Shown piece by piece: positions 7,129-28,262 of a stretch of DNA of 32,321 bases. Each line of letters starts with the position of its first letter. Position 1 is the first letter of the stretch. The position numbers and the translations under genes were made by a program. The stretch spans positions 1 through 32,321 of the forward strand of contig JANYAU010000004.1 in NCBI GenBank assembly GCA_025361165.1, written 5' to 3'. This DNA is from Betaproteobacteria bacterium (GTDB taxonomy: Bacteria; Pseudomonadota; Gammaproteobacteria; Burkholderiales; Thiobacteraceae). The notes beneath the pieces are model-generated. The model did no database searches. It saw only the letters and a list, made by a program, of their open reading frames with translations, and was not told the origin of the DNA.

Positions 7129-7569
7129 CTATTGAGTCGCACAACCTTTGTTGGCCAACTGATCCGCGCGCTCGTTGCCGTCATGCCCGGCATGCCCCTT
7201 GACCCAAAGCCATTCGACATCGTGTTGACTGGCAAGCTGATCCAACTCCTGCCACAGGTCGACGTTTTTCACTGGCTTTTTGTCGGCGGTTTTCCAGCCG
7301 CGTTTCTTCCAGCCAATAATCCACTCGCTGATACCTTTTTGCACATACTGCGAATCGGTGTGTAACTTCACCACACAGCGCCGGTTCAGAGACTCCAAGG
7401 CGCGAATGACGGCTAATAGCTCCATGCGATTGTTGGTCGTAGCGGGCTCGCCACCGCACAATTCTTTTTCCGTCTCGCCGAAGCGCAGTAACGCACCCCA
7501 GCCGCCCGGGCCGGGATTGCCTTTGCATGCGCCATCGGTAAAAATTTCCACGACTTCAGACAAGCTCAT
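7129..7569 (-). CDS. rnhA: Ribonuclease HI
   Basis: 146 residues after choosing the ATG at 7569; the ORF track begins 19 codons earlier with an arginine-rich stretch that does not belong to the family. An AAGGAGA ribosome site just before this ATG supports the choice. The enzyme degrades the RNA strand of RNA-DNA hybrids. The four catalytic acids are present: D12 in [16 protein letters not shown] in NNRMEL, D in HTDSQYV, and D in the [11 protein letters not shown] loop. The basic handle region ([16 protein letters not shown]) is intact. The start overlaps the end of the methyltransferase gene by 14 bases, and dnaQ follows directly, so the three are likely one transcript. Confidence 0.95.
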
Positions 7570-8332
7570 TCTCCTTGCGCGTGCGGCAATGCCCCGCCTC
7601 TTTTTGCGCCGCCGGGGCGATACCACGCTGCGCCGCCAAGCGTTCGCTCCAACTCGGCAAAATTAAACGCATCCCCGCTACGCGTTTTTTGGCGAGCAGA
7701 TAAAACACGCCGCCTCCCAGCGGCCACCAACGATCGCCCGCCGCTTCCATGAATTGCAGCCGCGCCAACCATTGCGCGCTTTGCAGCGGCGGCACATAAC
7801 ACGCCAATTGCCCCGCGACCACCTCGAAACCCAGTAGCGCTAACCAATCTTTTAGCCGGGGCAGGCCGATGAATTTACCGCACCAGGGATAGTCCACGCG
7901 GCGACGGCGCAACAGATGACACGCGCCCCAAAAGCTCAAAGGGTTAAAGCCGGTGATGAGCACCTGCCCTTCGGGCATAAGCACGCGCTCTACCTCGCGC
8001 AAAATTTGATGCGGCGTGGCAGAAAATTCCAATACGTGCGGCATGAGCACAAGATCCACACTTTGACTGGCGATAGGCAGGTGGTTGAAGTCGGCCAACA
8101 ATGAGGCGGGGCGATGCGTCCCCAGCGTGAGGCGCAAAGGAATGCGGCTGGCGCGTAACATATCATGTTGCGGCAAACCCAGTTGGAGTGCATTGAAGCC
8201 GAAGATATCGCTGACGATCTCGTCGAAATATGCTTGCTCGCGCGCCAGGACGTAGCGGCCCAAGGTCGTCTCGAACCACTGTCGCGCATCGCGTCGGCGT
8301 TCCTCGCCATGCGGCCCATTTAGATTTGGCAT
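7556..8332 (-). CDS. Class I SAM-dependent methyltransferase-like protein
   Basis: 258 residues. It resembles the Methyltransf_11-type gene that often lies beside rnhA and gloB in proteobacteria. The SAM-binding motif II and following segment are visible as [28 protein letters not shown] and [13 protein letters not shown] (shown here as landmarks near residues 95-140). Motif I is weak: no clear GxGxG is seen, only LRLTLGTHR followed by LLADFNHLP, so cofactor binding may be reduced. The C-terminal tail is basic and poorly conserved. The ATG has only a weak ribosome site. The gene is divergent from the gloB remnant, with about 20 bases between the two starts. Substrate unknown. Confidence 0.8.
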
Positions 8333-8352: not shown

Positions 8353-8703
8353 ATGCCGATGATGATGCATGTCCTCACCATTCCGGCGTTTGAAGACCAT
8401 GACAGGGGCTGCTCGTGGGCGGCCATGCTACGATCGTCGACCTGGGCGACACCGTGTTGCTGCCGGAATTGGAACTGGAATTGACCGTCATCAATGTGCC
8501 TGGCCGCGCTGCCGCGCTGCCGGGCTGGTGGCCTATTATGGCGCAGAATGCCTATTTTGGGGGATACGCTGTTCGGTCACGGCTGCGATAAACTGTGCTC
8601 AGGTACGCTGCAGGTACTATTCCACGACGCCCAGTTTCCGGGCCTGGTAAAAGTGCACCATGATCCGCGCGTGAAACAATACATTTCGTTAATGTTGTTC
8701 TGA
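8353..8703 (+). pseudogene. gloB: Decayed gloB (hydroxyacylglutathione hydrolase, glyoxalase II) remnant
   Basis: Pieces of GloB appear in order but in three different frames. The start reads MHVLTIPAFEDH (frame 1, the usual IPAFxDN start). Frame 3 then gives LLVGGHATIVDLGD, which runs straight into GDTVLLPELELELTVINVPG. Frame 2 gives VAYYGAECLFWG, and frame 1 again gives GDTLFGHGCDKLCSGT. The whole segment with the metal-binding HxHxDH motif is missing, and the join falls at a repeated GD, as expected for an internal deletion. After SGT the sequence no longer resembles GloB, so the C-terminal third is gone too. At least three frameshifts plus a deletion make it non-functional. Its place, divergent from the methyltransferase and before mltD, is a usual place for gloB. 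Confidence 0.85.
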
Positions 8704-8777
8704 AAAACGCCTTGACGCTTAAGACCTTACGCCATTACCATCGTGCCCGACAGTCACTAAAAAATGAAAATTATTCG

Positions 8778-10460
8778 ATGCAAGTAACGGGCACCAAGCT
8801 GGCGATCGCAACACTGATAGCCAGCTTATATGGATATAGCGGAGGCGCATTAGCGGCAGATGCGACCGCTATTCCCGCTGCCGCCGTTACCCTTTCTTCC
8901 AAAGCACTGGATGAAATGCCTGCTCAGTCCGCCGCTGGCCCCGCACAATTAGAAAACGTTGCCATTGATCCGCCGGATTTACCTGCGGCGGATCAGCCTT
9001 CCATTATCAGCATCGAGCCCGCCCCGGCTGGAGACGCCGCGCCGCTGCTCAAATCGACGGCTAGTTTGGGTGATCCGCAGCACGATTTATGGGCGCGCAT
9101 TCGCGTCGGCTTCGCGCTGCCCGAGCTGGATACCGCCTTAGTACAACAAAACGAAAAATGGTACGCCGACCGTCCTGAGTATGTCGCGCGCATGCTGGAA
9201 CGCAGCAAGCGTTATTTGTTTTATATCGTTCAAGAAGTCGAAAAACGCGGCATGCCGACCGAAATCGCCTTACTGCCGATGATCGAAAGCGCATTTAACC
9301 CCAAAGCCTATTCGCCGAGCCACGCCGCGGGTATTTGGCAATTCATCCCTTCTACCGGCCGTAACTATGGCTTGAAGCAAAACTGGTGGGTAGACAATCG
9401 GCGCAACGTGATCGCCGCTACCAGCGCGGCGTTGGATTATTTGCAAAACTTACATGATATGTTCGGCAGCTGGGAATTGGCGCTCGCTGCTTACAACTGG
9501 GGCGAAGGCTCGGTGTCCCGCGCTATCGCCAAGAACGAAGCTAAGGGCTTGCCCACTGACTATCTCAGCCTGCGCATGCCGAAAGAAACGCAACAATACG
9601 TACCGCGCCTGATTGCAGTCAAAAACTTAATTCAACATCCGCAAGACTTCGATATCGATTTAGGCGTCGTGCCGAACGCACCCTATTTCGCACAAATCAC
9701 CCTGACGCAGCGTATCGATGTGGCGCTCGCAGCCAAGCTTGCGCAAACCACGCTGGAAGAATTTACCTCGCTCAATCCGCACTATAACCGCCCCGTGATA
9801 CAAGCCAAGGGCCCCACCACACTCTTGCTGCCGGTGGATAAAGCGGCGATATTCGCGACCAATCTGGAAAATTACAGTAAACCTTTAGTTTCTTGGCAAC
9901 CGTATTACGCTAAACGTGGAGAGAAGTTAGCCTCTATTGCCAGCCACCACGGCATCTCGAGTGCGCGCCTAAAAGAAGTAAATGGCACCGTCCTCAAGCG
10001 TGGCCGCCTCACTGGAAATCAAGTCTTGCTGGTACCGGGCTATGGGGGTGCTAAGTTTGAAAACGTGTCATTTAGTGAAATACCAGCCGCGCCGGAACTG
10101 CGCTCGAGCACGGAAATTTACACTGCCCGAAGAGGCGATACCCTACAGTCCATCGCCAAACATGCCGGCGTCAAAGTGACGCAGATTAAAGCCTGGAACC
10201 ACCTTAAATCGAATCGGGTCGCACTGCATCAGAAAATTTATCTCAGTGCGGCCGGTAAAACCCTCAAATCCTCGCACCGCGCGGTGGCCGTTAGCGCAGC
10301 GAAACCCAGGCGCTACACCGTGCGCCGCGGCGACACGCTCTTCTCTATCGCGCAGCGCTTCGATGTCGAACTTGATGATCTACTGCGTTGGAACAAACTC
10401 TCTTCCAAAAAGCATCTGCATCCCGGGGATAAAGTCAGCATCTTCGCCAAGAACGGCTGA
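8778..10460 (+). CDS. mltD: Membrane-bound lytic murein transglycosylase D with three LysM domains
   Basis: 560 residues from the ATG at 8778, chosen because it opens a signal peptide (LAIATLIASLYGYSGGALAA); the track start is an upstream TTG with no leader features, and neither start has a good ribosome site. The enzyme cleaves peptidoglycan glycan strands to 1,6-anhydro products in the periplasm. The GH23 domain (about 140-270) has the catalytic glutamate in PMIESAFNP, followed by AAGIWQFIPSTGRNYGL and LALAAYNWGEG. Three LysM peptidoglycan-binding repeats follow: YYAKRGEKLASIA, YTARRGDTLQSIA and YTVRRGDTLFSIA. No lipobox cysteine is seen, unlike E. coli MltD. It converges on ygfX with only 11 bases between the stops. 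Confidence 0.93.
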   Translation: MQVTGTKLAIATLIASLYGYSGGALAADATAIPAAAVTLSSKALDEMPAQSAAGPAQLENVAIDPPDLPAADQPSIISIEPAPAGDAAPLLKSTASLGDPQHDLWARIRVGFALPELDTALVQQNEKWYADRPEYVARMLERSKRYLFYIVQEVEKRGMPTEIALLPMIESAFNPKAYSPSHAAGIWQFIPSTGRNYGLKQNWWVDNRRNVIAATSAALDYLQNLHDMFGSWELALAAYNWGEGSVSRAIAKNEAKGLPTDYLSLRMPKETQQYVPRLIAVKNLIQHPQDFDIDLGVVPNAPYFAQITLTQRIDVALAAKLAQTTLEEFTSLNPHYNRPVIQAKGPTTLLLPVDKAAIFATNLENYSKPLVSWQPYYAKRGEKLASIASHHGISSARLKEVNGTVLKRGRLTGNQVLLVPGYGGAKFENVSFSEIPAAPELRSSTEIYTARRGDTLQSIAKHAGVKVTQIKAWNHLKSNRVALHQKIYLSAAGKTLKSSHRAVAVSAAKPRRYTVRRGDTLFSIAQRFDVELDDLLRWNKLSSKKHLHPGDKVSIFAKNG

Positions 10461-27842: not shown

Positions 27843-28262
27843 GTGGATCACGAACAAGTATTCGCTCTTGCCCTTACCCCAGATTCGCCCGAAACTTGGA
27901 ACAATCTGGGCAACGCTTTGCAGCATTTGTATCGCCTGAATGAAGCGGAATCGGCCTATCGCCAAGCACTTGCGCTCAAGCCGAATTTCGCCGATGCCTG
28001 GTACAACTTGGGCACGGTGCGTGGGTCTATCGGAATTGATACAAATAGTTTTGCGGAATATGAAACACTTGCGTTGCGTCTGGCAAGCGAGCCCATGCAC
28101 CTCCGTGCAATAAAGCATTGCTTGCTCGAAAATCGTGCCTTTGCACCGTTATTCGACGCGCCGAAGACGGTGCGCAATCTAGAACGCGCTTACCTACAAA
28201 TGCTCATGCAGTGGATTGCAGGCAATCCAGCTATCAGCTTCGACGTATCCGCTACCCACTAA
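27843..28262 (+). pseudogene. Internally deleted TPR/O-GlcNAc-transferase-family protein (remnant)
   Basis: 139 residues from a GTG start. Residues 8-60 form TPR repeats (TWNNLGNALQ, EAESAYRQALALKP, ADAWYNLG). Residues about 68-135 resemble the extreme C-terminus of TPR-linked O-GlcNAc-transferase-like proteins (FAEYETLALRLASEP, then LFDAPKTVRNLERAYLQM). The several hundred residues that would hold the catalytic glycosyltransferase domain are absent between them, yet the frame stays open. The simplest reading is a large in-frame deletion leaving a probably inactive stub; a real small TPR protein remains possible. It follows feoB by 48 bases and converges on cheB. The C-terminal likeness is from memory of the family and not from a search. 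Confidence 0.55.

Follow-up and report, generated by a model that had tools for sequence, protein, structure and literature searches.

Decay of the glyoxalase II gene gloB at its ancestral locus in a betaproteobacterium of the Thiobacteraceae

Type II glyoxalase (hydroxyacylglutathione hydrolase), the product of gloB, is described by the family model TIGR03413 and by the domain HAGH_C (PF16123), and a functional GloB needs a single open frame of about 250 aa. The single-domain protein GloC/YcbL is known as a minor glyoxalase II (PMC7884692, PMC8431146). Ordinary bacterial pseudogenes carry small indels and undergo progressive deletion once the gene is no longer selected (The Extinction Dynamics of Bacterial Pseudogenes, PMC2916853). 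A literature search for pseudogenes of gloB returned nothing relevant.

We analysed a window of 32,321 nucleotides of a betaproteobacterial genome (GCA_025361165.1, contig JANYAU010000004.1), in which the stretch 8353–8703 is almost certainly a non-functional pseudogene of gloB. It resembles GloB in that pieces of the MBL part can be recognised and in its methyltransferase/mltD locus, but a continuous frame of the required length is absent from 8353–8703. The HxHxDH metal-binding motif is likewise absent from the remnant, having been removed by an internal deletion, and HAGH_C, which is present in the relatives, had no match in the whole assembly of the source genome. Small indels and progressive deletion are features that it shares with ordinary pseudogenes; it differs from them in that traces of gloB can still be recognised in two species separated by about 0.5 substitutions per 4-fold site.

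Pieces and lesions of the gloB remnant

The remnant lies between a methyltransferase gene (7556–8332, minus strand) and mltD (SLT and LysM domains; 8778–10460, plus strand), both serving as synteny anchors, and thus occupies the orthologous place of gloB. The methyltransferase, rnhA, dnaQ and mltD genes around it had been taken as intact from the letters alone, and their Pfam matches agree with this. In length the remnant is 351 nt, against 768–774 nt for the gloB genes of the relatives. DNA alignment of window positions 8460–8615 to the relatives' intact gloB gave E = 1.8e-24, and a single match that crosses from the methyltransferase gene to the 5' region of gloB gave E = 2.9e-28. Piecewise alignment to the relatives recovered gloB at 8377–8403, 8409–8444, 8451–8504, 8513–8557 and 8560–8625.

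The sequence-only reading had described GloB pieces following one another in frames 1, 3, 2 and 1, separated by at least three frameshifts. The frame translations confirmed this order, and alignment to the relatives confirmed three frame changes. All the pieces are on the plus strand. The N-terminal piece in frame 1 (8353–8408; MPMMMHVLTIPAFEDHD...) aligned to the start of the relatives' gloB and ends in a net loss of one base at an AGGGG run (about 8403–8408). It is followed in frame 3 by a piece (8409–8450; LLVGGHATIVDLGD) on the N-terminal side of the internal deletion, whose in-frame junction reads GGCGAC (8445–8450), and frame 3 continues beyond the junction (8451–8504; TVLLPELELELTVINVPG). 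The second frame change is a gain of 8 bases at a perfect tandem duplication without any homopolymer (8506–8521; copies of GCGCTGCC at 8506–8513 and 8514–8521). The frame 2 piece (8513–8559; RAAGLVAYYGAECLF), in which GloB reads GLVAYYGAECLF, ends in the third change, a one-base loss at TTTTGGGGG (about 8558). The last piece, again in frame 1 (8560–8703; GDTLFGHGCDKL...), runs into a stop, and HAGH_C is deleted.

The lesions were defined against G004, which has the closest intact gloB (74% identity over 228 sites). The join from GD to GD with loss of HxHxDH, which had been proposed earlier, held: about 61 codons are missing, and in G004 the stretch that they occupy is bordered on each side by GGCGAT. 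The deletion fuses VD(P/L)GD to (E)GD in frame and takes away a stretch that includes THHHxDH; the automatic alignment sets the gap slightly elsewhere. The reading from raw sequence alone had therefore placed this short-repeat deletion correctly. Its placing of two frame changes at or near G runs also stood. It had missed that the remaining frame change is a perfect 8-bp duplication, and it had mentioned neither a 3-base loss near 8417 nor that the C-terminal half, with HAGH_C, is gone.

Differences between the remnant and G004 fall at codon positions 1, 2 and 3 in 17, 15 and 28 cases, compared with 12, 6 and 36 between the intact genes of G003 and G004. The remnant's differences are thus less focused on the third position than those of the intact pair, although with 228 sites the contrast is a weak one (Fisher p = 0.07). 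Among first or second codon positions invariant in five intact genes, 20 of 122 are altered in the remnant.

The locus in relatives and the course of decay

The source assembly (G000; 2.8 Mb in 169 contigs, 93.65% complete) was compared with seven other genomes of the same genus. HAGH_C is found in an open frame in six of these seven, with five complete genes of 768–774 nt and a sixth (G001) partly masked by N. A comparison with the locus in relatives had been suggested, and it shows that the five keep an intact gloB there; the relatives' gloB is at the equivalent locus wherever its position was checked. The order methyltransferase–gloB–mltD also occurs in outgroups (Methylotenera and other Betaproteobacteria), with gloB intact in nearly all the named outgroup loci. 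By motif, the gloB frame is open in 30 outgroup loci and in two genomes of a sister genus, and most of the remaining loci have near full-length matches. The ancestral order is methyltransferase–gloB–mltD, and the window represents the derived state, since relatives and outgroups retain gloB at this locus.

A smaller gloB remnant is present at the equivalent site in the sister species G006, which comes from a separate assembly. What survives there is a few bases at the beginning of the gene, one block around GTGGCCTATTATGGCGCAGAA..CCTATTTTGGG and the final codons, and the remnant lacks one base at the codon that matches the one-base loss at TTTTGGGGG in the window. The grouping of G000 with G006 is well supported (SH-aLRT 98.7, bootstrap 96), and the two have diverged by 0.51 substitutions per 4-fold site.

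As two of the three frame changes occur at G runs, an intact gene broken by sequencing or assembly errors in the G runs of a metagenome assembly has to be considered. Such errors cannot explain the second frame change, because it is a perfect 8-bp tandem duplication, and the 61-codon deletion, the loss of HAGH_C and the substitutions at otherwise invariant positions also speak against them. Above all, G006 holds a remnant of its own at the same locus in an independent assembly, by which error is practically excluded. We rejected this explanation as extremely improbable on the strength of the duplication and the G006 remnant.

The loss of gloB here is ordinary gene decay. Both deletions and the duplication would have arisen by slippage or by recombination between short repeats after selection had been relaxed. 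As the one-base deletion falls at the same codon in both species, the onset of decay probably lies in, or close to, the ancestor shared by G000 and G006, after which different pieces would have been lost in each lineage; a single loss in that ancestor, with erosion proceeding separately afterwards, is the simplest reading. The substitution load of the remnant (about 0.18 per site, corrected) is below that of the G000 neutral branch (about 0.25–0.3, estimated from 4-fold distances), so that the later decay may also have been partly independent in the two species. For the dating of the loss, the shared lesion and the substitution load point slightly different ways.

A sigma-70-like promoter, probably that of mltD, is located immediately 3' of the remnant (TTGACG-18-TACCAT; 8712–8741, plus strand) and is untouched by the decay. 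In this block 19 of 33 columns are invariant in seven genomes, compared with 9 of 40 upstream and 4 of 34 downstream. Silencing of mltD by the decay of gloB is not expected, because mltD has this conserved promoter of its own beyond the remnant. The proximity of the promoter, together with a 93-aa ORF that exists mechanically at 8369–8650, could suggest that the remnant has turned into a novel, short but functional gene or into a leader for mltD. This is very improbable: the 93-aa ORF is almost wholly absent from G006, and the conserved promoter begins past the end of the remnant. The listed TTG start of mltD (8712) sits inside the –35 box of the promoter, so that the true start is probably the ATG at 8778. 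Elsewhere in the window, a short TPR-like ORF (27843–28262; 139 aa) may be a truncated or decayed gene for a TPR protein.

The glutathione-dependent methylglyoxal route

Following the decay of gloB, either the glutathione-dependent methylglyoxal route would have been abandoned or its second step would have been taken by another hydrolase. The sequence-only reading had named these alternatives, a second glyoxalase II elsewhere or loss of the route, and had proposed looking for gloB and gloA in the rest of the genome. That search gave no match to HAGH_C or gloA in the 94%-complete assembly, and a second intact gloB was not found by the HAGH_C and MBL-fold searches of the assembly.

Loss of the whole route would mean that without gloA no S-lactoylglutathione is formed, leaving gloB useless and free to decay. 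Consistent with this, glyoxalase I (gloA, TIGR00068) had no match in G000 or G006, none of the five VOC proteins (PF00903) of G000 matches glyox_I, and methylglyoxal synthase (mgsA, TIGR00160) had no match in any of the eight genomes of the genus. Glutathione synthetase is present in all the genomes of the genus that were searched, including G000; a loss of the route would therefore not stem from a loss of glutathione. On the other hand, G007 has an intact gloB although gloA was likewise not found in it. The incompleteness of the assembly also counts against this explanation: contig C56 breaks off 482 bp beyond YgjP, in IS-transposase-like sequence, near one gloA site of the relatives, and ftsX, a neighbour of gloA in some relatives, had no match in G000 either, most likely owing to an assembly gap. 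The absence of gloA is unproven because of this break, and an attempt to prove its loss from an empty site failed, as the position of gloA varies in the genus and the break is near one of the sites. We rate loss of the whole route as quite plausible, a little short of an even chance.

The end of C56 (L038:7205–7686) comprises a PAAR-like ORF and the IS-transposase-like stretch, and 266 of its bases are repeated in contig C148 (L007:2289–2553) at 87% identity.

A lineage-specific MBL-fold hydrolase

Among nine MBL-fold matches in G000 is a 230-aa single-domain hydrolase, L003 (G000:C20:33211–33900, minus strand; L101:7209–7901). It is confined to the two gloB-less genomes, G000 and G006, in which it is 90% identical; in the six other genus genomes searched, its matches were only GloB or more distant proteins. 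In G000 it is flanked by a PEBP-like (PEBP/YbhB-like) gene and a YlqF-like GTPase gene, and the counterpart in G006 also adjoins a PEBP-like gene. The two copies differ at 22, 8 and 77 sites at codon positions 1, 2 and 3, which indicates strong purifying selection. Its GC3 is below that of the neighbouring genes and its orientation is opposite to theirs.

We compared L003 with the described families. Only MBL-fold families match it in Pfam, without HAGH_C, and it scores 126.4 bits against TIGR03413 (GSH_gloB), where the cut-off is 200.8; GloB was rejected as its identity on account of this score. All seven metal ligands are in place (motifs THSHADH, PGH, GDTLF and PGHNY), so that L003 has the single MBL domain and complete metal ligands of a GloC/YcbL-like glyoxalase II. 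GloC/YcbL (2xf4) is among its best matches to solved structures, the top ones being persulfide dioxygenases. L003/L099 is like 2xf4 in having the MBL fold without HAGH_C and the full ligand set, and unlike it in that the overall score is closer to persulfide dioxygenases and that the helical insertion of YcbL near the metal site (PMC8431146) is much shorter, with a shared FW..QG.P stretch.

Type I persulfide dioxygenases are marked by a T-H-hydrophobic-H-A-D-H-hydrophobic-T/S motif and a conserved C-terminal Cys (PMC6060420). In L003 the stretch is THSHADHVN and the C-terminal part lacks Cys, and the protein was rejected as a member of this type. Another hydrolase of G000, L008, carries the PDO-like GCGRTDFQNG.

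These features raise the possibility that L003 took over the hydrolysis of S-lactoylglutathione and so freed gloB from selection, which is conceivable since a single-domain protein, GloC/YcbL, is already known as a minor glyoxalase II. The restriction of L003 to the gloB-less pair, its complete ligands, the 2xf4 match, the purifying selection and its deviating GC3 and orientation are in favour. Against it are the low GSH_gloB score and the better structural fit to persulfide dioxygenases. Moreover, gloA was not seen, so the substrate may be lacking. The co-occurrence of L003 with gloB loss counts once, G000 being the sister of G006, and since the search covered the genus and left out the outgroups G008/G009, gain here and loss elsewhere look alike. 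We consider the takeover rather unlikely, and hold it slightly more doubtful still that the G000–G006 ancestor gained this single-domain MBL-fold thioesterase horizontally in place of the two-domain GloB. The lack of gloB may be accommodated either by abandonment of the entire route or by substitution of L003.

The loss of gloB provides a natural test case for the ways in which a bacterium with apparently retained glutathione can do without glyoxalase II, and it names one specific gene, L003, for assay. Judged from its sequence and distribution, this hydrolase, exclusive to the two gloB-less genomes among those of the genus that were searched, may have assumed the role of gloB; if so, it would be a case of non-orthologous replacement in which the displaced gene can still be recognised at its locus.
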